From Spirochaetia bacterium (GTDB lineage: Bacteria; Spirochaetota; Spirochaetia; Sphaerochaetales; Sphaerochaetaceae): 64,000 bases of DNA. Under the pieces are notes generated by a model. That model saw only the letters and a list, made by a program, of their open reading frames with translations, was not told where the DNA came from and ran no database searches. Where the stretch lies: assembly GCA_022482625.1 (NCBI GenBank), contig JAKVOU010000001.1, forward strand, positions 558,001 through 622,000, in the 5' to 3' direction. Below, one piece after another: positions 7,999 to 20,026 of the stretch. The translations under genes were made by a program, and so were the position numbers. Each line of letters opens with the position of its first letter. Position 1 is the stretch's first letter.

Positions 7999-10155
7999 TT
8001 AGGCTTTCCCGGCATCCAAGGCTATGCGCGCTGCACTATCATGATGCCGCTTCTCATATGAAGGTCTTCCGACCAGCCATATGGCCCATATAATCAAGGC
8101 CAGAGCAATTGCCGGCCCTATGCCAAACGAAGCACCAAAGAACAGCCAACTGCCGAGCTGGTAGCAAACGAATGCAAGCGCATAACCAAGAATCACTTGG
8201 TATAGGATTGCAAATGTACTCCACGCCTTGTTGCCCATTTCCCTGATGATCGTTGCTATTGCTACGATGCAAGGTGGATCAAAAAGATTTATGATCATAA
8301 ATGAGAAGGCACCCATTGTGGTAAACATTCCAGCAATACCCTGCATAACAGCAGCATCTGAGGCATCAGCTGCAATCTTATTCAGGACGGCCAATGTACC
8401 GATTGCCTGTTCCTTTGCCATTTCTGCCGAGATGACAGCAACGGCACCTTTCCATGTACCAAAGCCTAATGGAGCAAACAGCCAGGCAAAAGCATGTCCG
8501 ATTGCAGCAAGCATACTGCTTTCGATATCAACCATCTGGAATGTCCAACTGAACGTGGACAGCGCCCAAATGACTACACAAGCCGTAAAGATTATCGTAC
8601 CGGCCTTGATGATGAACGCACGGGATCTTTCCCACATATGTATCAGCACTCCTTTCAATGCCGGCATATGGTATGCTGGAAGTTCCATGACGAATGGTGC
8701 CGGATCTCCGCTGAATGCCTTGGTCTTCTTCAAGGCAATACCGGAAAGGACTATGACAGCAATGCTCAAGAAATACATAGACGGAGCAATCCATACTGAA
8801 TGCGGGAAGAAAACTGCCGTAATCATACCGATGATGACAGTCTTGGCAGAACAGGGAATGAATGTACACAGCATGATGGTCATGCGTCGGTCTTTCTCAT
8901 TCTCAATCGTCCGGGCCGCCATGATGGCAGGAACTCCACAACCTGTACCGATAAGGATAGGAATGAACGATTTGCCAGAGAGTCCAAACCGTCTGAAAAT
9001 CCTGTCCATGATGAATGCAATCCTTGCCATGTAGCCAGAATCTTCAAGGATTGCAAGGAAGAAGAAAATCAGCAGCATCTGCGGAACAAATCCAAGGACT
9101 GTACCGACACCTCCGATGATACCGTCCACCAAAAGGCTTTCAAGCCAAGAAGCAGCTCCTGCATTTTCCAGGAAAGTGGATACTCCATTGGTAATAATAC
9201 CACCGAAAAGAGTATCATTGACCCAGTCAGTAAGGAATCCACCCAAGGTAGTAACGGAAATATAATATACGAACCACATGACAGCAGCGAAAATAGGAAG
9301 AGCCAGTATCCTGTTTGTCACTATACGGTCAATCTTGTCTGAAACCGAAAGATTACCTGCAGGTCGTTTCTTACGGATTGTCATTGAAACAATTTTTTGG
9401 ATATAGGCATATCTCTGGTTGGTAATGATGCTTTCGGCATCGTCATCCATTTCTTTTTCACAATCGGTGATATGAGTCGACAGATGAGCCATAAGCTTCG
9501 GGTCCAAATGCAGGCTTTCAAGGACTTTTTCGTCTTTCTCAAATACCTTGATTGCATACCAACGGATATTCTTCTTATCTACAAAAGGAGAAATTGATTC
9601 TTCGATATGTGCGATTGCATGTTCGACGCTTCCAGTAAATACATGGGGCCTTTCCTTGATCTGGCGGGTCTTGGCAATTTCAATCGCCTTTTCAGCAGCC
9701 TTGAGGCTACCCTCGCCCTTCAATGCACTCATTTCGATAATTTCACAACCTAAGGTTTCTCCTAATTTTGCCAAATCTATCTTGTCTCCGTTCTTTCGGA
9801 CAAGATCGACCATATTCAAGGCGATTACCATAGGAATTCCCAATTCAAGCAACTGGGTCGTCAGGTACAGGTTACGCTCGATGTTCGTCCCATCAATTAT
9901 GTTGATGATTGCATCAGGCTTTTCATTGACCAGATACCTTCTCGTCACCACTTCTTCCAATGAATAGGGTGACAGGGAATAAATCCCGGGCAAATCCTGG
10001 ATGATCACATCCTTATGATTCCTTAACCTGCCGTCTTTTTTCTCTACGGTTACACCCGGCCAGTTACCGATATACTGGGTGCTACCCGTCAAATCATTGA
10101 ACAATGTAGTCTTGCCGCAATTAGGATTTCCGGCAAGTGCAATTTTAATTTCCAT
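7999..10155 (-). CDS. feoB: Ferrous iron transport protein B
   Basis: 718 residues, a standard length. The cytoplasmic N-terminal GTPase shows G1 GNPNCGKTTLFN, G2 GVTVEKKDG, G3 DLPGIYS and G4 NMVD. The C-terminal membrane part has repeated hydrophobic segments and the gate-like sequences GTGCGVPAIMAART and PCSAKTVIIGM, with conserved cysteines. FeoB imports Fe2+ across the inner membrane, powered or gated by nucleotide hydrolysis. It follows two feoA genes in the same operon, whose promoter carries metalloregulator boxes at 10722-10762. Confidence 0.98.
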   Translation of the reverse strand: MEIKIALAGNPNCGKTTLFNDLTGSTQYIGNWPGVTVEKKDGRLRNHKDVIIQDLPGIYSLSPYSLEEVVTRRYLVNEKPDAIINIIDGTNIERNLYLTTQLLELGIPMVIALNMVDLVRKNGDKIDLAKLGETLGCEIIEMSALKGEGSLKAAEKAIEIAKTRQIKERPHVFTGSVEHAIAHIEESISPFVDKKNIRWYAIKVFEKDEKVLESLHLDPKLMAHLSTHITDCEKEMDDDAESIITNQRYAYIQKIVSMTIRKKRPAGNLSVSDKIDRIVTNRILALPIFAAVMWFVYYISVTTLGGFLTDWVNDTLFGGIITNGVSTFLENAGAASWLESLLVDGIIGGVGTVLGFVPQMLLIFFFLAILEDSGYMARIAFIMDRIFRRFGLSGKSFIPILIGTGCGVPAIMAARTIENEKDRRMTIMLCTFIPCSAKTVIIGMITAVFFPHSVWIAPSMYFLSIAVIVLSGIALKKTKAFSGDPAPFVMELPAYHMPALKGVLIHMWERSRAFIIKAGTIIFTACVVIWALSTFSWTFQMVDIESSMLAAIGHAFAWLFAPLGFGTWKGAVAVISAEMAKEQAIGTLAVLNKIAADASDAAVMQGIAGMFTTMGAFSFMIINLFDPPCIVAIATIIREMGNKAWSTFAILYQVILGYALAFVCYQLGSWLFFGASFGIGPAIALALIIWAIWLVGRPSYEKRHHDSAARIALDAGKA

Positions 10156-10209
10156 TCTACAGATTCCTCATTCCACTCCTCAGCGAGGGTACTTTTTCAT
10201 AAAGTCGGT

Positions 10210-10434
10210 TCAAAACACTTCAATTTGCTGTGCATCATTTTGACGCAGGGACAACTCATATCCTCTGATCTGGATCTCGATAGGATCTCCAAGGGGAGCT
10301 ACCTTCCTGATATATACATCAGTTCCCTTGATAATTCCCATATCCATGATCCTGCGCTTGGTTGCACCTTCTCCAAGAAGCTTTTTCACCTTGACCGTTT
10401 CCCCTACTCCAGCATCCTTCAATGTCTTTATCAT
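10210..10434 (-). CDS. feoA: FeoA-domain protein (copy 2)
   Basis: 74 residues, one SH3-like FeoA domain: LLGEGATKRRIMDMGIIKGTDVYIRKVAPLGDPIEIQIRGYELSLR in outline, with the family-typical R-R-I-M-D-M-G-I and P-L-G-D-P-I-E-I elements. FeoA is a small cytoplasmic partner of FeoB that promotes ferrous uptake. It lies between the first feoA and feoB, 9 bases after the former. Confidence 0.95.
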   Translation of the reverse strand: MIKTLKDAGVGETVKVKKLLGEGATKRRIMDMGIIKGTDVYIRKVAPLGDPIEIQIRGYELSLRQNDAQQIEVF

Positions 10435-10443
10435 AAACTTCTC

Positions 10444-10656
10444 CTATACCATGATTCGGTTTGCCATACTCTTGCCCAATGCAATCCTGCTGTCCTTTAC
10501 CTGCAGTATCAGGTTACCGGACAACTCCGAAATCACCGTGACAGAACCATCTACGACAAAGCCCAATTCCGACAGATGTTGCCGTATTGCATCATTGCCC
10601 GTAATTTTATGAATCGTTACGGTTTCACCGGCCTTTGACATAGTCAATGGCATCAT
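10444..10656 (-). CDS. feoA: FeoA-domain protein (copy 1)
   Basis: 70 residues, a diverged FeoA domain with IRQHLSELGFVVDGSVTVI and SRIALGKSMANRIMV. AGGAGG lies directly upstream of two adjacent ATG codons. As first gene of the operon it is closest to the two metalloregulator boxes. Two tandem FeoA copies before FeoB are known in several anaerobes; each may contact a different part of the FeoB complex (inference). Confidence 0.93.
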   Translation of the reverse strand: MMPLTMSKAGETVTIHKITGNDAIRQHLSELGFVVDGSVTVISELSGNLILQVKDSRIALGKSMANRIMV

Positions 10657-10721: not shown

Positions 10722-10774
10722 GTTAGACGTCTCTAACTTAAAGTGAGTTTAACGCCTCTAACTTTTCCTGTCAA
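10722..10774 (-). promoter_or_regulatory. feo promoter with two metalloregulator boxes
   Basis: Reading the minus strand, -35 TTGACA (10774-10769) and -10 TAAACT (10751-10746) are 17 bp apart. The palindrome GTTAGA-CGTC-TCTAAC (10722-10737) is perfect and covers the predicted start point. A second, imperfect copy, GTTTAA-CGCC-TCTAAC (10747-10762), covers the -10 and spacer. The centres are 25 bp apart. This is the expected layout for repression by the adjacent DtxR-family protein. Confidence 0.75.
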
Positions 10775-11000
10775 GCCTATGAAAAAAATAATTCAAGAAA
10801 AAACCATGCCTTGTCGGTAACTTGCAATTTGCTTTTTACAGTTACCTATTGTATATTGAATCCAAGAAGTCGCTTTTAGAGCTAGAAAATTGGCTTCAGC
10901 AGGCACATGTCCCTTGAATGCACCAAACAAACGGAAAAATGTTATTTTTGTGTATAATTAATTGATATTTTGTCGGTATACAGAAACCAAAGGATCAAAA

Positions 11001-11378
11001 ATGTCATTGAAGAAAACTACAGAAGACTACCTTGAAGCGATGTTGATGCTCAAGGAAGAACATGGATATATAAGATCCGTAGATGTTGCAGAAAAGCTGA
11101 GTGTCACGAAACCAAGCGTAACCTATGCCACAAAGCAGCTGAAAGAAAAAAAATATATAACAATGGATCCTAACGGATCAATCAGCCTGACTGCTTCAGG
11201 AATGGAAATTGCCTCAGGGACCTACCGTCGGCATAAGCTCCTTACCGAATTCATTGCCAGGCTTGGAGTCGACCGCAAGATTGCAGAGACGGACGCCTGC
11301 AAGATTGAACATGACCTCAGCAAGGAAACATTCGATGCCATCTGCAACCACGTCAAACAAGAAATAAAAGAAGAATAG
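11001..11378 (+). CDS. DtxR/MntR-family metal-dependent repressor
   Basis: 125 residues from the ATG at 11001 (AAAGGATC upstream). A winged HTH (SVDVAEKLSVTKPSVTYATKQL) is followed by the dimerisation and metal-binding domain. Ligand positions: Asp in TTEDYL (MntR-like), His and Glu in RRHKLLTEFI, and Cys-x2-Glu-His in DACKIEHDLS (DtxR/IdeR-like). It lacks the C-terminal SH3-like domain, as in short MntR proteins. A TATAAT at 10953-10958 may be its -10. Divergent from feo and surrounded by boxes it could bind, it is the likely iron or manganese sensor of the island. Confidence 0.93.
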   Translation: MSLKKTTEDYLEAMLMLKEEHGYIRSVDVAEKLSVTKPSVTYATKQLKEKKYITMDPNGSISLTASGMEIASGTYRRHKLLTEFIARLGVDRKIAETDACKIEHDLSKETFDAICNHVKQEIKEE

Positions 11379-11568: not shown

Positions 11569-11727
11569 TCAGGATTTATCAATATGGCAGGAATGGCAAG
11601 CAGAACACGCACTGCAACCGCTGCAGCAACCATCACAGGACTTACCGTTCTTTGCCCTCTTTACCACGCTGACAAGCGCTAGGATGATACACCCGAATAC
11701 AATGGCTCCGATAACCCAGTTTATCAT
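11569..11727 (-). CDS. FeoB-associated Cys-rich membrane protein
   Basis: A 52-residue gene. AGGAGGG lies just before the ATG at 11727. The protein starts MINWVIGAIVFGCIILALVS (one membrane helix), then a basic KRAKNGK stretch, then a C-terminal tail with seven cysteines spaced CDGCCSGCSACSACHSC. This is the architecture of the FeoB-associated Cys-rich membrane protein family. These proteins accompany FeoB in many Firmicutes and others, and a role in iron handling is presumed but not proven. It has its own promoter at 11795-11823 and its own terminator. Confidence 0.88.
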   Translation of the reverse strand: MINWVIGAIVFGCIILALVSVVKRAKNGKSCDGCCSGCSACSACHSCHIDKS

Positions 11728-11823: not shown

Positions 11824-11893
11824 CACTGATAAAAATCCTCAGCAAGCCAAAAGCCAAGACTTCTTCCAGTTTTTCAGCCAAAGCTAACAACAG

Positions 11894-11923
11894 CAAAAAG
11901 AGCCCCCGAAAACTATCGGGGGC
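11894..11923 (-). terminator. Terminator of small RNA copy A
   Basis: GCCCCCGA-TAGTTT-TCGGGGGC on the minus strand, an 8-bp perfect stem, followed by TCTTTTT. It is identical in stem and loop to the hairpin at 16281-16310. Confidence 0.88.
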
Positions 11924-12105
11924 CAAAGGCAAGGATAAAAAATGGAATATTGGACAAGAATCTATGCATGGCCCCTTGCCCATCAATGATATGATGCTTA
12001 TACAGTGAGCCAATACGTATTGCCTCGTCGGTTGGCAGTACTCATTTCACTAATCGCATCTAACTTGCAAATACCAAAATGTTAGCCATTGCTAATAATC
12101 ATATC
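11894..12105 (-). ncRNA. Putative iron-responsive small RNA, copy A
   Basis: No open frame of any quality. The unit has its own promoter (12112-12140), a TTAGC-type box near its start and a strong terminator at the end, giving about 211 nt. It aligns with a second unit at 16281-16494. Shared blocks are the promoter, the box, the core GATTCTTGTCCAA followed by TCCATT, and the terminator hairpin. A stem GGCAAGG/CCTTGCC (plus strand 11928-11934 and 11974-11980) lies three bases before the terminator block. The other copy has a different but again complementary stem there, which argues for conserved RNA structure. It also lies downstream of the importer ATPase gene, so its terminator may serve that operon too. 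Confidence 0.6.
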
Positions 12106-12140
12106 GGCTTTATACTATGGAAAAATTTCATGGCAGTCAA
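12082..12140 (-). promoter_or_regulatory. Promoter and metalloregulator box of small RNA copy A
   Basis: TTGACT (12140-12135), 17-bp spacer, TAGTAT (12117-12112). The palindrome TTAGC-CATT-GCTAA (12082-12095, plus-strand reading) is perfect and begins about 10 bases after the predicted start. An alternative -10, TATGAT, lies closer to the box and cannot be excluded. Confidence 0.6.
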
Positions 12141-12270
12141 GTAGGCAATATAAAAAAACCAAGATTTTTCTCTGTAAGATTTCTTTGGTACTTCCGGTCT
12201 ACAAATTCAAAAGGTCACCAATTCCTTTATCTTCCATAATCATTTCACAGAAATGAAGATAGAAGAAGTT

Positions 12271-13356
12271 TCAACGAGGAATAATCCTAGCGAAACGGGT
12301 ATCCGGAACATAAGAGACCATTGTTCCAAGTACAAGATTCCTACAAGAGGAAGCAAAAGGGACATGGACGTAGATAGTCATGGATATGCTGATTTCCAAT
12401 TCATACCGTATGTAACTTCCCAAAAATTGTTTGGAAACAATCCGTGCCCTGGGCTTGCCTACTTTTACTTTTCCTATAGCGATATACTCTGGTCTTAGCA
12501 TCAAAGCAACAGGCTCTCCTTTCTTGAGCGACCGACAATCCTGTCTGTCAATTCTGAATGGAATATTTCCTGGCAGCAGGACCGTTATGATGTTTCCTTC
12601 TGCCTGCTGCACTGTCAGGTGAATAAGATTTGCCTGGCCTATAAAGTCCGCCACAAACATTGACTGCGGAAAGTTATAGATTTCCTCAGGGGTACCGATT
12701 TGTTTTATTCTTCCTCTGTCCATGACGATGATCCTGTCAGCAATAGAAAGCGCCTCCTGCTGGTCATGTGTCACATAAAGACATGCAATGCCAAATTTAC
12801 GTTGTATTGTAAAAATCTGCGATCTCATTTGGATCCGGAGCTTAGCGTCAAGATTTGAAAGCGGCTCATCCATCAAAAGCAATTGAGGTTCCATCACGAT
12901 TGCCCTGGCCAATGATACCCGCTGCTGTTCTCCCCCGCTAAGCTCTTCAGGATAAGCCAGGCCCTTATGTGTCAAATGAAACAATTCCAGACAATCCTTT
13001 ACAGATTTTTCAATTTCTGCAACACTCTTCTTCTTGCACTTCAAGGGATATGCAATATTTTGCATTATGGTCATATGAGGCCATAAGGCATAATTCTGAA
13101 AAACAAAACCGATATTCCTATCATTCGGCACTATTGAAATATGCCGTTTGCTGGAAAACAAGACCCTACCATCCAAAATAATTTCACCTGTGACTGTCTT
13201 CCCTATTCCAGCAACTGCACGCAGGAGTGAAGTTTTTCCACAGCCGCTCGGCCCGAGGATAGCAATCAATTCCCGGTTCTTTATCTTGGCAGAAAACTTA
13301 TCTACGGCAAGTTGTGTATCATACGTAACCGAAACATCGTCAATTTCCAAAGACAT
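12271..13356 (-). CDS. Ferric-type ABC transporter ATP-binding protein
   Basis: 361 residues. Walker A GPSGCGKTSLL, Q-loop region VFQNYALWPHM, signature LSGGEQQRVSLARA, Walker B LLLMDEPLSNLD and switch histidine in YVTHDQQEAL are intact. A C-terminal TOBE-like regulatory part follows (ALMLRPEYIAIGKV). It matches the FbpC/AfuC group that energises Fe3+ import, though putrescine and phosphonate ATPases look alike. It begins 7 bases after the permease stop. The whole operon starts from a promoter with metalloregulator boxes, which supports iron as substrate. Confidence 0.92.
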   Translation of the reverse strand: MSLEIDDVSVTYDTQLAVDKFSAKIKNRELIAILGPSGCGKTSLLRAVAGIGKTVTGEIILDGRVLFSSKRHISIVPNDRNIGFVFQNYALWPHMTIMQNIAYPLKCKKKSVAEIEKSVKDCLELFHLTHKGLAYPEELSGGEQQRVSLARAIVMEPQLLLMDEPLSNLDAKLRIQMRSQIFTIQRKFGIACLYVTHDQQEALSIADRIIVMDRGRIKQIGTPEEIYNFPQSMFVADFIGQANLIHLTVQQAEGNIITVLLPGNIPFRIDRQDCRSLKKGEPVALMLRPEYIAIGKVKVGKPRARIVSKQFLGSYIRYELEISISMTIYVHVPFASSCRNLVLGTMVSYVPDTRFARIIPR

Positions 13357-13363
13357 TCCTGGA

Positions 13364-15013
13364 TCAGCTCCTTTTACCGATAAAAATTATCAAAAAACGC
13401 AACAACATGATGCAACCAATCAAGACGACAGCCAAAGTCGAAGTCATTTCCAATCCATAGGACTGGGACTGCATGCCAAACAGCAAGACCCCTACAGTCT
13501 GTTGACCGGCTGCATAGAGAAGCAACGATATGGGAATTTCCCGTAACGCTATGATGAAACAAAGGACAGATCCACTTCTTATTCCTTTTTCAAGCAATGG
13601 CCAGACAATATCCCTCATGCTTTTTCTTTGCGAAGCTCCTGCAAGTCGTGCTGCAGCAATCTTGTCCCAATCTATTTTTGCAACCAAGCCATTGATATTA
13701 TTCAAGATAATAGGAGTAAAGAGTACCGCATAAGTCACTATTATCGCCCATGCAGAACCATACAATCTTATCGGTTTCCTGTTCCATGCTGTTATGGCAG
13801 CTACAGCAAGTACAAGATTAGGAATGGAAAGAGGAAAAGAAACAAGCCGGACCAAGTATTTTCTTCCAAAAGCATCAGCAGGCAAAAGGGAAATATGCAA
13901 AGCAATAAACGAAGCAATACCGATACCGGTTGCCCCATACAAGAAACTGTTGCGAAAAGCAACTTTAGCTTGTTGGTCAGAAAACAGCTCAATATAATTG
14001 GAAAATGTAAGGTATTCAGACTTAAACGGCAATCCCCATCGCTTGAGAAACGATGAAGCAACCATGCAGACCAAAGGAACTGCTATGAGGCAGACAAGGA
14101 CGAACAAGACTACGGCCATTACAATGAAGCGCCAACGCCCCAAGGAAAAACAGACAGAAACATTTTGACTCGAATGGTGTACCTCAAAGCTTTTTCCAAT
14201 AAGCCTTTTCCTTCCGAAACTACAAATTGCTGTTACCGTAATGACCAGCAGGAGTGACAAGCCTGCAGCCTCCCCAAGTTTCAAAGAAGAAAGCGATGCA
14301 TATATCTGGGTTGAAAGAAATCGTTTGCCGACTGGAAGTCCCAACGCTGCAGGTACATCAAAATTGGCAATGATCCTTCCGAAAACCAAACTGCTTATCG
14401 AAACCAGCTGCGGAAGCAGCAAAGGAACAGTTACGTCTACAAGAGTATGCCATTTACCGGCACCTGAAAGCAAAGCTGCCTCTTCAAGACTCCTATCATA
14501 GTCAAGCAATGCATTGTACAATGCAAAATACGTAATCGGCAGCATATGGACAGACAATACCAACCCTACGGAAAATACCGAATATGGCATCATGGTCATC
14601 CCATAATGCCATCCCAGATGGTTCCACAATCTGTCGATATATCCATTCCGGCCAGCAAGCTGTATCCACGACAAGGCCAACACATAAGATGGTATGGCAA
14701 AAGCAATGAAAATAAAAATATGGACAAACCTTTTTCCTGGCATGTCCGTCCTTGCTACCAGCACGGCAAGGACAAGGGCAACAAATACGGTAAGGCAAGT
14801 CGAAATGATTGCCATGCTGATGGATGTAACCACAGCTTTCCATGTACGGGAATCTATAAGAAGGTTGATAATCGGCAATATCCTGCCATCAGAATTCAAA
14901 CTTCCATTGAATGCACTGACAAACAGAGAAGCAAGCGGATATGCCACAAAAAGTCCTGCAGCTATCCATAGACCTACAAGTACAGGGGAATGTGTAGTTC
15001 TAGAAAAGTGCAT
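13364..15013 (-). CDS. Ferric-type ABC transporter permease (fused two-domain)
   Basis: 549 residues with about twelve membrane segments and two EAA loops (LEEAALLSGAGKWHTLVDVTVP in the first half; AARLAGASQRKSMRDIVWP in the second). This internal duplication is typical of FbpB/AfuB permeases of ferric importers. The start overlaps the end of the binding-protein gene by 14 bases, so the two are translationally coupled. Confidence 0.92.
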   Translation of the reverse strand: MHFSRTTHSPVLVGLWIAAGLFVAYPLASLFVSAFNGSLNSDGRILPIINLLIDSRTWKAVVTSISMAIISTCLTVFVALVLAVLVARTDMPGKRFVHIFIFIAFAIPSYVLALSWIQLAGRNGYIDRLWNHLGWHYGMTMMPYSVFSVGLVLSVHMLPITYFALYNALLDYDRSLEEAALLSGAGKWHTLVDVTVPLLLPQLVSISSLVFGRIIANFDVPAALGLPVGKRFLSTQIYASLSSLKLGEAAGLSLLLVITVTAICSFGRKRLIGKSFEVHHSSQNVSVCFSLGRWRFIVMAVVLFVLVCLIAVPLVCMVASSFLKRWGLPFKSEYLTFSNYIELFSDQQAKVAFRNSFLYGATGIGIASFIALHISLLPADAFGRKYLVRLVSFPLSIPNLVLAVAAITAWNRKPIRLYGSAWAIIVTYAVLFTPIILNNINGLVAKIDWDKIAAARLAGASQRKSMRDIVWPLLEKGIRSGSVLCFIIALREIPISLLLYAAGQQTVGVLLFGMQSQSYGLEMTSTLAVVLIGCIMLLRFLIIFIGKRS

Positions 15014-16031
15014 TGAATTGAGTCTTTATTTCGTCCTGATGCTCAGACAGATACTTCCAGTCAACGCGATGCACCGAAAAATTGTCAGGAATTCCGGCAG
15101 GGAGAGAAAGATCTGAACGCACGCTGATGAATTCATACTTCAATGTTATTTCCTGAGCTTCCTTTGAGATCATAAAGTCTTCAAATGCACGGGCAAGCTG
15201 TTCTTTTTTCTGAGAACGTTCAGGATTGTTGCTGATTGCAATCGGTCTTTCTATTGCCAATGCACCCTCTGAAGGCCAAACAATGCCGATAGAGGAAGGA
15301 TAACCACCTTTCCTGGCTTTTTTTTGAAGGCGTAAAGCTTCGTCATCAGGCGCTATACCCAGTAAGAATTCCTTTTCCATAATCTTGGAAGGAACTGCAC
15401 TGTTTTTCTTTGCCAGATACAGGTGATTATTGACCAAAGACTTGTAGTAATCCCAATTCCTTCCTTTCATGTCATATAAAGTTGCTACCAACGCCAAGGC
15501 AGTAGAAGACTGCTCAGGATCTGCCTGCAGAACAGCATGATCATATTCTGGTTTTGTCAAATCCGCAAAAGAAGTCGGAACCTGGTCAGCAGGCATCAAG
15601 TCTGTGTTATATAAAATGACACCATACCGTTCATTGACCAAAGTATAATTGCCTTTTGTCCTGTATATGGGTTTCAGTTGTTCAATCCCTTGCGGAACAT
15701 ATGGATCCAAAGCTCCCGCTTCATCAAGGGCAATGTAAAGCAAAGGGTCAGATCCCCAGAACACATCCGCACGGATGCCACCTGTCTTGAATTCAGTCCA
15801 GACCCGTTGACGCAATGGGCCACACCCCAGTCCGACAATATCCAAGACATCACCCCTATCCTTTTCAAATGCCTGTTCCAGTTCCTGCAACATGGCAGAA
15901 GGGCCGGAAATATAAGCGGTTATTTTTTCATCAGGTTCATTGACTTCTTCAACTCCCTCAGCAAACAAAGCACTTCCAACCAGTACCATGGCAGAAAGAA
16001 CTAACAGAAACTTCCATCCCGTATGTTTCAT
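15000..16031 (-). CDS. Ferric-type ABC transporter substrate-binding protein
   Basis: 343 residues with a signal peptide (MKHTGWKFLLVLSAMVLVG, likely cleaved after ALFA). The mature part resembles FbpA/AfuA periplasmic iron-binding proteins: ADVFWGSDPLL, LDPYVPQG, YGVILYNTDLMP, PSSIGIVWPSEGA. GGAGGTG lies before the ATG. It is first in the operon and carries iron, probably as a ferric complex, to the permease. A related substrate such as thiamine cannot be excluded by sequence alone; operon control by the metal boxes favours iron. Confidence 0.9.
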   Translation of the reverse strand: MKHTGWKFLLVLSAMVLVGSALFAEGVEEVNEPDEKITAYISGPSAMLQELEQAFEKDRGDVLDIVGLGCGPLRQRVWTEFKTGGIRADVFWGSDPLLYIALDEAGALDPYVPQGIEQLKPIYRTKGNYTLVNERYGVILYNTDLMPADQVPTSFADLTKPEYDHAVLQADPEQSSTALALVATLYDMKGRNWDYYKSLVNNHLYLAKKNSAVPSKIMEKEFLLGIAPDDEALRLQKKARKGGYPSSIGIVWPSEGALAIERPIAISNNPERSQKKEQLARAFEDFMISKEAQEITLKYEFISVRSDLSLPAGIPDNFSVHRVDWKYLSEHQDEIKTQFNALF

Positions 16032-16053
16032 AACACCTCCACAAATTTAACTA

Positions 16054-16098
16054 ATTAGTTATTGCTAACTTTGTAAGCTAAAGCTAACACTTTGTCAA
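16054..16098 (-). promoter_or_regulatory. Promoter of the ferric importer with two metalloregulator boxes
   Basis: Minus strand: TTGACA (16098-16093), 17-bp spacer, TACAAA (16075-16070). One box, GTTAGCTTTAGCTTAC (16088-16073), fills the spacer with one mismatch to TTAGC-N4-GCTAA. A second, GTTAGCAATAACTAAT (16069-16054), covers the start region, also with one mismatch. A 14-bp palindrome, TAACTAATTAGTTA, follows at 16048-16061. GGAGGTG and the ATG of the binding protein come about 10 bases later. Confidence 0.7.
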
Positions 16099-16280
16099 GG
16101 GGAAATTCCCAAATCTACAAAATTAAAACCTGAAAATGGATAATCCAGAAATACTGGGAATCAATTTACAAAGGCATATATGGACTTCACACAACACTCT
16201 TTATGAATTAATTTCATGTTATGTGCATTACTTACTGTCGTAAAACAGTAGCAACATGTCCTGTAAATCCTCAGTTAAGG

Positions 16281-16310
16281 AAAAAAGAGCCCCCGAAAAC
16301 TATCGGGGGC
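16281..16310 (-). terminator. Terminator of small RNA copy B
   Basis: GCCCCCGA-TAGTTT-TCGGGGGC then TCTTTTTT on the minus strand; the stem and loop are identical to those at 11894-11923. Confidence 0.9.
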
Positions 16311-16494
16311 CAATGGTGGAGATTCTACGGAATGGAGCATTTGGACAAGAATCCGTGTATGGACTTCCCACCTGTCAACGAATGGCATATGATATCCGAT
16401 CTTGCTGAGACCGAGTCAACTGGCATTCCTTTCACTTGTGCAGACTAGCTAAAGGAAATTTCATTGAATCAGCAAAATGTTAGCATATGCTAAT
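16281..16494 (-). ncRNA. Putative iron-responsive small RNA, copy B
   Basis: About 210 nt on the minus strand between the importer promoter and a gene-free region. It has its own TTGACT-17-TAAGAT promoter, a perfect 14-bp box (TTAGCATATGCTAA) at the start point, and the same terminator as copy A. The conserved core GATTCTTGTCCAA followed by TCCATT is present. The stem before the terminator here is GGTGG/CCACC (plus strand 16315-16319 and 16368-16372) where copy A has GGCAAGG/CCTTGCC, consistent with compensatory change. It is not a leader of the importer: the terminator ends it, and the importer has its own promoter about 190 bases on. Confidence 0.65.
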
Positions 16495-16529
16495 AATCGT
16501 ATCTTATCCAAAGGAGCCATTGCAGTCAA
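16480..16529 (-). promoter_or_regulatory. Promoter and metalloregulator box of small RNA copy B
   Basis: TTGACT (16529-16524), 17-bp spacer, TAAGAT (16506-16501), then the perfect palindrome TTAGCATATGCTAA (16480-16493) at the predicted start point. The stretch from CTACTTGACTGC is shared with copy A. Confidence 0.7.
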
Positions 16530-17215: not shown

Positions 17216-19535
17216 GTGCAGGACCCCAAGCTCCTGCACTTCTTTTGAAATAATCAAATGGCCAAATAGGTAATCAGAAAGCCCGCACAGCCCGAACACA
17301 GTAACAATTATCCTTATCATGGCAACTGCGAGCGCCAAAAGTAAACTTTACAAAGTATGCACGATCAGAATCGCCCTCGGAAGAATAAGAACTCCAATAG
17401 TAATCCTTTTTGAATCCTCCTTCAGTGTATATTTGATCGTACATTTTGCGCAATTCATCCAGAGACGGCAGGAACCAATCGCTATACCCGTTCAGTATTT
17501 TGTCGTAACATACTTTTGCAGCATAATCGGTTCTACCCTCGTATGGTTCTGCAGTACCAAATTTCGCTACTATCGCCTCCGTGTTTGCCTTTCCGTCTCC
17601 GATTTCTCTATACGTCCCCGAGATTGATGTACCATAGCCTCCCCAGACATAATATCCTTCATCAGCAGGAGCTGCTTCAAGATATCGCCAGCCACAGACA
17701 CTCGATTCCATATTATCTGCTCCATCAGGATCACTAAGCATATTGTCTGCATCGCAGTCATAGAAAATTATTCCTCCTGCAGGTCCAGTGTCTCCCACAG
17801 AATAAGTTTTTTTCCACGTATAGGTTGCACTTGCCACACTGCTGTCCGCCATGCCGCTCTTCACCGCCATCGCCCTTACTGTCACCGTGGCATCCAGTGT
17901 AATGGCTCCGTCATAGATGTTGCTCAGCGTGGTCGGCATACTGTCGTCCGTCGTACAGTAGATGGTCGCACCGTCGGTCCCACAGCTGACCGTCACGCTC
18001 TGGGTCCCCTCGAAGGTACCTCCCGTCGGGCTGATCACCGGCGTCGCCACCTGGCTGACCGTCACTGCCAGCACCGCAGTGGAGGAATCGGCAAATCCGT
18101 CCTTCACCGCTATGGCCCTCACCGTCACGCTCGCCGTCACCGTGACCGCCCCGACATATTGGTGGCTCGAGGTGCTCGGCGTGCTCCCGTCCGTCGTGTA
18201 GTAGATGGTTGCTCCACTGGTAGCACTGCTGATCGTTATGGCCTTCCCTCCCGGCGCACTCAGGCTGCCGTCTATCTCAGGCATCGCCGCCCTCAGCGTG
18301 TAGGTCCTGCTCGCCGCAGCAGAGTTCACCTTCCCGCTTTCCTCGTTGAATGCCGTAATGGTCGTCCCCGTACTTGCGATGCTGATGCCTGACAAGTAGG
18401 TCTGGTAGGTACCGCTTCCTGCCTTGTAGCGTATGGTATCGCCGGTCAGTGTCAGCGTAAATGTATTGCTGTAGGTTCCGGTGGTCTTGCTGAAGTCTGG
18501 TCCTGTGGCAACGCTGTAGGCCTGTGTCCCTGTGGCAGACCTGACCATCCCGTCCTTTTCTGCATAGGCCTCCACCTTGAGCTCCTTGCCCTGCGTCACC
18601 GGGATACTTGTCCCTGTCGTCCAGCTTCCATAGCTTGCACTGCCTACCGCATACCGGTAATGGATGGTTGCTCCGCTAGTCTTGCAGCTGATGGCAACAT
18701 CTTGCGTATCTCCTGAACTCAGGCTGAAGGTCGGGGTCACTGCAGCAGAAACCGTAACAGCTTGGCTGGCTTCCTCTGAGTCCAGCAGGTCAGCCTTCAC
18801 GGCAACTGCCTCTACCGTCTTGCTCTCTGTCAAGGTGAACGGAGCTGTATAGCTCTCTCTCGTACTGCTGGTGGCAGGGTCAGTCCCATCTGTCGTGTAG
18901 TAGATCGTCGCTTCTGCAGTATCGGTTGCCATGGTCACCTGCTTGCCGCCGGTAACATCACCTGTGCTTATCGTAGGCTGTGCTGCCTTGGAAAAGTCAG
19001 CGTCCTCGAAGCTGATCGTCCCGCTCGACTCCAGCCCCGTGAACACGTTCACCATGTCCATCCCTGAGAAAGTAATCTGGGTACCGGAGGGATTGGTAAA
19101 CCTCACCCCTACCATGTAGTCGCCTGCAGCGGCAGTGCCGCTTACTGCCACACTGCTGCTACTTATCGTCCCGGCAACATAGTCTTCTCCTATGTCTGCC
19201 CCTACTCCTTTGAAGGATGCTCCTAGGTCTTCCGGCCAGCTTATCCCTATGCTATAGGTTCCGGTGTCACTTGTAAGGTAATGCAGGGTGAAGCTGATGG
19301 AGCTCGTCTTCCCTGAGTTGACTGCGACTCCGGTTGCATCGGCCTGTTCGGTGATCACCGTCCCGTCGCTGTTCATCCCTTCCACATGGAAGTCCCAGGT
19401 GCCTACGGGAATGCTGGAGACCGTATTCTTTTCACCGAGGATCAAGGTCTGCTTGGAGAGCGTCTTGCTGCTGTTCGTCTCTTCGCCCCAGAAGGACACC
19501 TGGGTGACCTTGGCACTGCTTCCGGGAGTTATCGA
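17130..19535 (-). repeat. Duplicated surface-lipoprotein unit, copy A
   Basis: The DNA from the middle of this gene to near its N-terminus (about 18420-19530) is almost identical to 62655-63780, including third codon positions. The part 17274-18400 is related but diverged. Similarity continues about 130 bases past the stop (compare 17130-17274 with 61443-61575). Confidence 0.85.
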
Positions 19536-19682
19536 CTTGGACGTACCTTCGTCTAAGCCAAACTGCAGTTCACCGTAGGGATCAGGGTCCTGACAACCTG
19601 AAAGTAATAGCAAGGTAAAAAATAAAATGAACAAAAGTCCATATAAATATATAGGAAATCTAAGTTTTTTGTTTACAGACAT
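17274..19682 (-). CDS. Surface lipoprotein with chitobiase-like repeats and DUF1566-type end (copy A)
   Basis: About 802 residues. The start at 19682 gives a signal peptide ending LLLLSGC, a clear lipobox, so the protein is lipid-anchored. The N-terminal part is a Ser/Thr-rich beta domain. It is followed by several repeats of the form ATIYYTTDGTDP...TVEAVAVK, matching the chitobiase/beta-hexosaminidase C-terminal (CHB_HEX_C_1) type. The last 180 residues (VGDTGPAGGIIFYD, YSDWFLPSLDEL, YYWSS, CVRAVRAF) match the DUF1566/Lcl C-terminal family, which has a C-type-lectin-like fold. Likely an exported adhesin or glycan-binding protein; the ligand is unknown. Base composition is more GC-rich than the flanks. 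Confidence 0.85.
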   Translation of the reverse strand: MSVNKKLRFPIYLYGLLFILFFTLLLLSGCQDPDPYGELQFGLDEGTSKSITPGSSAKVTQVSFWGEETNSSKTLSKQTLILGEKNTVSSIPVGTWDFHVEGMNSDGTVITEQADATGVAVNSGKTSSISFTLHYLTSDTGTYSIGISWPEDLGASFKGVGADIGEDYVAGTISSSSVAVSGTAAAGDYMVGVRFTNPSGTQITFSGMDMVNVFTGLESSGTISFEDADFSKAAQPTISTGDVTGGKQVTMATDTAEATIYYTTDGTDPATSSTRESYTAPFTLTESKTVEAVAVKADLLDSEEASQAVTVSAAVTPTFSLSSGDTQDVAISCKTSGATIHYRYAVGSASYGSWTTGTSIPVTQGKELKVEAYAEKDGMVRSATGTQAYSVATGPDFSKTTGTYSNTFTLTLTGDTIRYKAGSGTYQTYLSGISIASTGTTITAFNEESGKVNSAAASRTYTLRAAMPEIDGSLSAPGGKAITISSATSGATIYYTTDGSTPSTSSHQYVGAVTVTASVTVRAIAVKDGFADSSTAVLAVTVSQVATPVISPTGGTFEGTQSVTVSCGTDGATIYCTTDDSMPTTLSNIYDGAITLDATVTVRAMAVKSGMADSSVASATYTWKKTYSVGDTGPAGGIIFYDCDADNMLSDPDGADNMESSVCGWRYLEAAPADEGYYVWGGYGTSISGTYREIGDGKANTEAIVAKFGTAEPYEGRTDYAAKVCYDKILNGYSDWFLPSLDELRKMYDQIYTEGGFKKDYYWSSYSSEGDSDRAYFVKFTFGARSCHDKDNCYCVRAVRAF

Positions 19683-20026
19683 AGCAGACACCTTTTGCTC
19701 TACAAAGATTGTGGTTCTATGCGGATACAAGGATACCTTTTCTGAGTAGATTTTCATTTTGTCGGTTCTGATTATGTCATAGCTTTCATTATTTACAATA
19801 GACAACTAACGCAAACTGTAAGAAAAATGATTTTTTGTTCTGTGAATTTTAATTACAATATCCCAAAGTCTAATATTTTGGTGAAGAATTATAAGAATAA
19901 TGAAATCTTTTTTGTCGAGAATAAAATTTTGTCAAAGAAATCATAAACATGTTGCGACAACTGGCGTCATAAGATAGCCATTCTCTGCAATCACTGGAAA
20001 AGGCTGAGAGCAAACTTGAAACCAGA
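19683..20026. other. Intergenic region upstream of lipoprotein copy A
   Basis: No gene seen. It should hold the promoter of the lipoprotein, but no confident -35/-10 pair was identified. It is AT-rich between 19800 and 19950. Confidence 0.4.

Follow-up and report, generated by a model that had tools for sequence, protein, structure and literature searches.

The paralogous small RNAs (sRNAs) PrrF1 and PrrF2 lie in tandem in Pseudomonas aeruginosa. RyhB of enterobacteria, FsrA of Bacillus and IsrR of Staphylococcus are further metal-repressed sRNAs, all of them controlled by Fur and with known iron-protein targets. The Pseudomonas pair responds to iron, is controlled by Fur and depends on Hfq, and IsrR pairs from C-rich loops with the Shine-Dalgarno sequence and the start codon (PMC9410917). 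MrsI (ncRv11846) of Mycobacterium tuberculosis is an iron-starvation sRNA that has a promoter site for the DtxR-family regulator IdeR and works in a host without Hfq (PMC9410917, PMC8628891). In Treponema denticola, the passages of PMC2628430 that deal with TroR describe it as a DtxR-like, Mn- and Fe-dependent repressor that works through a dyad at a sigma-70 promoter; they concern the control of transporter genes and mention no small RNA.

We analysed a 64,000-nucleotide stretch of DNA (the window) in which a sequence-only reading had proposed a pair of related sRNAs. The two units, srA and srB, are both on the minus strand and flank an ABC importer (Table 1). Their closest parallels by function appear to be MrsI, which they would resemble in DtxR-family control and in the apparent absence of Hfq, and PrrF1/PrrF2, with which they share the twin arrangement. 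By sequence, however, they belong to neither. MrsI is a single-copy RNA of about 100 nt with bfrA and hypF as known targets and has no match here, whereas PrrF1/PrrF2 differ in their need for Fur and Hfq. RyhB, FsrA and IsrR would be alike in metal repression, but their sequences are unrelated to srA and srB. The likeness to the TroR operators, as far as those passages go, is that of a DtxR-like repressor on a promoter dyad. Rfam gave no match to the units either at the gathering threshold or at E up to 1, the covariance models of RyhB (RF00057) and PrrF (RF00444) matched neither unit, and no Rfam riboswitch matched them. Hfq (Pfam PF17209) was not detected in the genome by a search that was positive in 6 of 14 control genomes.

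Table 1. Features of the srA/srB locus and its surroundings (positions in the window).
Feature	Position	Strand	Basis
srA candidate small RNA, ~205-210 nt	11895-12105	-	homology to srB, no common reading frame; ends inferred
srA promoter, TTGACT-17-TAGTAT	12112-12140	-	sequence match
srA operator, perfect TTAGC-N4-GCTAA just past predicted start	12082-12095	-	sequence match
srA conserved stem, 5' arm	11975-11980	-	folds, covariation, column shuffles
srA core GATTCTTGTCCAA, in conserved-stem loop	11950-11962	-	sequence match
srA conserved stem, 3' arm	11928-11933	-	folds, covariation, column shuffles
srA intrinsic terminator (same sequence as in srB)	11901-11924	-	sequence match
srB candidate small RNA, ~212 nt	16282-16494	-	homology to srA, no common reading frame; ends inferred
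srB promoter, TTGACT-17-TAAGAT	16501-16529	-	sequence match
srB operator, perfect TTAGC-N4-GCTAA at predicted start	16480-16493	-	sequence match
srB conserved stem, 5' arm	16367-16372	-	folds, covariation, column shuffles
srB core GATTCTTGTCCAA, in conserved-stem loop	16341-16353	-	sequence match
srB conserved stem, 3' arm	16315-16320	-	folds, covariation, column shuffles
srB intrinsic terminator	16288-16311	-	sequence match
Two one-mismatch operators ahead of binding-protein gene	16055-16087	-	sequence match
One-mismatch operator between srA terminator and FeoB-associated gene	11874-11887	-	sequence match
ABC importer, probably ferric iron	12271-16031	-	PDB and NCBIfam comparisons
Importer genes	binding protein 16031-15000, permease 15013-13364, ATPase 13356-12271	-	
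FeoB-associated Cys-rich membrane protein	11569-11727	-	
DtxR/MntR-type regulator, candidate reader of operator	10962-11378	+	family matches
feoA-feoA-feoB operon, slightly different operators (GTTAGAGACGTCTAAC) at 10722-10737	7999-10656	-	
feoB start region, best predicted partner of both loops	10150-10184	-	prediction only

Local alignment of the two regions (12159-11895 against 16547-16282) gave 66.7% identity over 285 columns with an E of 9.5e-22, so that the homology of the units stands, as do the paired TTGACT-17-TAnnAT promoters and the identical terminator that had been described with it. The similarity is bounded by a point just upstream of the -35 hexamer and by the end of the terminator, with nothing beyond. 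Because it stops at these two places, the duplicated piece corresponds to one transcription unit, and srA and srB would descend from a duplication of the whole promoter-to-terminator segment. By sequence, each unit has its own promoter and its own intrinsic terminator. Pairs of TTGACT and TAnnAT hexamers alone are no commoner than chance, but here they have been kept between the two paralogues. Taken by itself, the 3' part of the units shows 79% identity over about 77 nt (E 1.6e-11 in a whole-genome search), and the middle, in a correction to the sequence-only reading, is poorly conserved. The genome has no third copy, srA and srB being the sole ones.

A stem located 3 nt ahead of the terminator reads GGCAAG/CTTGCC in srA and GGTGGG/TCCACC in srB. 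The proposal that its changes preserve pairing held up: all six pairs are kept, with three altered on both sides and one changed from G-C to G-U, and in this comparison of two sequences a conserved stem with at least three double changes was equalled in 15 of 3000 joint column shuffles. Whether the 3' part or the full unit is folded, the minimum-energy structures of srA and srB contain the stem. Its loop contains, in both units, the 13-nt core GATTCTTGTCCAA and the block TCCATT, which had been noted before as shared. The further idea that the core is a single-stranded pairing region was borne out in part, as some of it is unpaired in the predicted folds but the rest pairs locally. Both units have short reading frames and might in principle be mRNAs of small proteins. 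They have no frame in common, though, their conserved block contains a one-base difference, and the conserved changes are those that preserve base pairs, all of which makes a coding function very improbable.

The perfect TTAGC-N4-GCTAA palindrome claimed for the start of each unit is indeed there. Sites with at most one mismatch occur five times in the window, all of them within 11874-16493, compared to 1.34 expected over the whole 64 kb; the binding-protein gene is also preceded by a TTGACA at about 16098-16093. In the 3.47-Mb genome, the perfect palindrome is found in exactly five places versus one for the reversed control, namely at srA, at srB, upstream of the second feoA-feoB and, in two copies, beside an ECF transporter locus/AraC gene. 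The AraC gene is duplicated and adjoins the operator both times, and one copy is next to a Trep_Strep S component and a CbiQ gene. A relaxed palindrome, GTTAG-N6-CTAAC, has eight places in the genome against five for its control. These include feoAAB, feoAB, both Trep_Strep loci and a DUF3793 gene, of which feoAAB, the second Trep_Strep gene and the DUF3793 gene are additions to the perfect sites. The operator of srA and srB is thus shared with metal-uptake genes of the same genome, and its distribution is good evidence that TTAGC-N4-GCTAA is a metal-uptake operator. As it elsewhere precedes feoAB and ECF transporter genes, it is natural to infer that srA and srB are expressed when metal is scarce.

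Several observations concern other members of this set. The feoAAB operator is a sister of TTAGC-N4-GCTAA with the inner pair changed, and the two operator subtypes may correspond to different DtxR paralogues. The region of the AraC gene and its operator is present twice in nearly identical form (C1:2997191 and G000:C2:16803); in place of the ECF genes next to the operator, the C2 copy has a gene that by eye looks like an IS110-type transposase. This is either a real duplication or an assembly variant. At G000:C1:3381178 the relaxed operator lies immediately before the start of the DUF3793 gene, which suggests that the DUF3793 protein belongs to the metal regulon.

The genome has four short DtxR/MntR-type regulators, including the one in the window, which aligns best to MntR. 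In the alignment it carries a Cys where the MntR structures, that of B. subtilis included, have a metal-site Glu, and its metal-site residues are partly MntR-like and partly DtxR-like. The metal sensed is probably iron, but because the neighbouring regulator most resembles MntR, it could possibly be manganese. The importer, which had been labelled ferric, is likely to transport ferric iron: the PDB matches are mostly Fe3+-binding proteins, although the best NCBIfam matches, below the cut-off, are 2-aminoethylphosphonate importers. On the other side of srB, the window encodes a predicted 843-residue surface protein (17274-19805) with repeated CHB_HEX_C/Fn3_assoc domains and an Lcl-like C terminus.

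Both units are upstream of, and co-directional with, metal-uptake genes, an arrangement that would suit cis-acting leaders in which transcription ends at the terminator and a signal is needed for readthrough into the importer or the FeoB-associated gene. In srA, a GGGGCC sequence could pair with the 5' arm of the terminator at -15.2 kcal/mol. The corresponding pairing is weak in srB (-8.5 kcal/mol), so that the possible antiterminator is not common to both units, and each terminator is separated from the gene that follows it by promoter-like sequence and operators. For these reasons, and with no riboswitch family matching, we regard attenuation as unlikely. Given the promoter-like sequence before each downstream gene and the lack of a common frame, the best reading is that srA and srB are paralogous, autonomous, metal-repressed sRNAs whose stem-loop pairs with mRNA starts, and we consider it fairly probable. 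A metal-loaded repressor of the DtxR/MntR family would sit on the operator over each start and keep both units off when metal is plentiful, and under scarcity the two RNAs would be made along with the importers. The part that has been kept is the stem-loop ahead of the terminator, whose loop blocks are complementary to a Shine-Dalgarno sequence and AUG; acting in trans, it would most likely pair with mRNA start regions and block translation.

No homologous pair turned up in any relative searched, an outcome that the sequence-only reading had named as counting against its proposal. BLAST found no homologue of srA or srB in 101 genomes, and a covariance model found none in 139 genomes of the family and 395 of the class. 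The BLAST matches in four relatives were in coding sequence and hence due to chance, the top outside match of the covariance model (35.8 bits) was the 3' end of a symporter gene plus its terminator, and its remaining outside matches were terminators only. The exact core matched eight times in 84,980 species, about the chance number and nowhere with the unit architecture around it; a match in a Spirochaetaceae MAG was rejected as coding sequence. Plasmid records yielded nothing, and our literature searches turned up no account of iron sRNAs in Sphaerochaeta. Absence from relatives is nevertheless weak evidence, because only three other genomes of the family carry a homologue of the binding protein (31-55% identity); upstream of the homologues in G165 and G003 there is no srB-like unit. 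Moreover, small RNAs are known to turn over fast (PMC9410917). An orphan pair with a poorly conserved middle could also consist of functionless, decaying duplicates of a promoter-terminator fragment. However, the operator, the core, the pairing in the stem and the terminator were all kept while the adjacent bases fell to about 67%, and we find decay improbable, even slightly more so than attenuation.

If srA and srB are trans-acting sRNAs, they might spare iron in the manner of RyhB and PrrF by silencing the mRNAs of iron enzymes, for which the regulon provides a fitting context. We scored the loops against 436 start regions taken from the window and from 400 kb of evenly spaced stretches, a sample covering roughly 14% of the genome. 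The top 25 of the 436 included a ferredoxin-like protein and what appears to be a xanthine dehydrogenase pair (names assigned by eye). A gene for an Fe-ADH pairs at -28.4 and -32.8 kcal/mol, but this is inside the background tail, the 0.1% levels of which are -29.8 and -34.5 kcal/mol. Of the 59 sites in the genome that match the complement of the core, none was a clear start-region target; as a set they did not favour the starts of iron genes, and no iron enzyme stands out among them and the sampled start regions. An iron-sparing role is possible but doubtful.

Both loops have feoB as their best predicted partner; it ranked first among 43 start regions of the window and regulon set as well as among the 436. 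In the predicted duplex, CCAT is opposite the AUG, GATTCTT is opposite the Shine-Dalgarno sequence AGGAATC, and TCCATT is opposite the bases just upstream. Against the 436 start regions, only 7 and 2 of 100 shuffled loops scored as low as the real ones. When the loops were shuffled jointly, feoB equalled the real score in none of 100 runs, whereas some start region did so in 85. By the latter figure the feoB score is not exceptional for the best of 436. As about ten regulon start regions were examined, the feoB pairing is a lead rather than a demonstration, and feoB as a target of both loops is suggestive only. The direction would also be odd, as an importer would be repressed in metal shortage, unless the RNAs switch uptake routes or the pairing activates. 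A full scenario in which lineage-specific twin sRNAs under a DtxR/MntR-type repressor, in an Hfq-less genome, repress FeoB by covering its Shine-Dalgarno sequence and start codon and thereby switch the uptake route within the regulon has, in our judgement, only a small chance of being right.

Small RNAs that respond to metals have evolved independently in several bacterial phyla, almost always with Fur as their regulator. A twin pair governed by an operator of the DtxR/MntR type, in a genome in which Hfq is not detectable, would add an independent case. The operator, the core and the feoB pairing offer concrete predictions, and srA and srB would give a testable example of how fast metal-responsive RNAs turn over.
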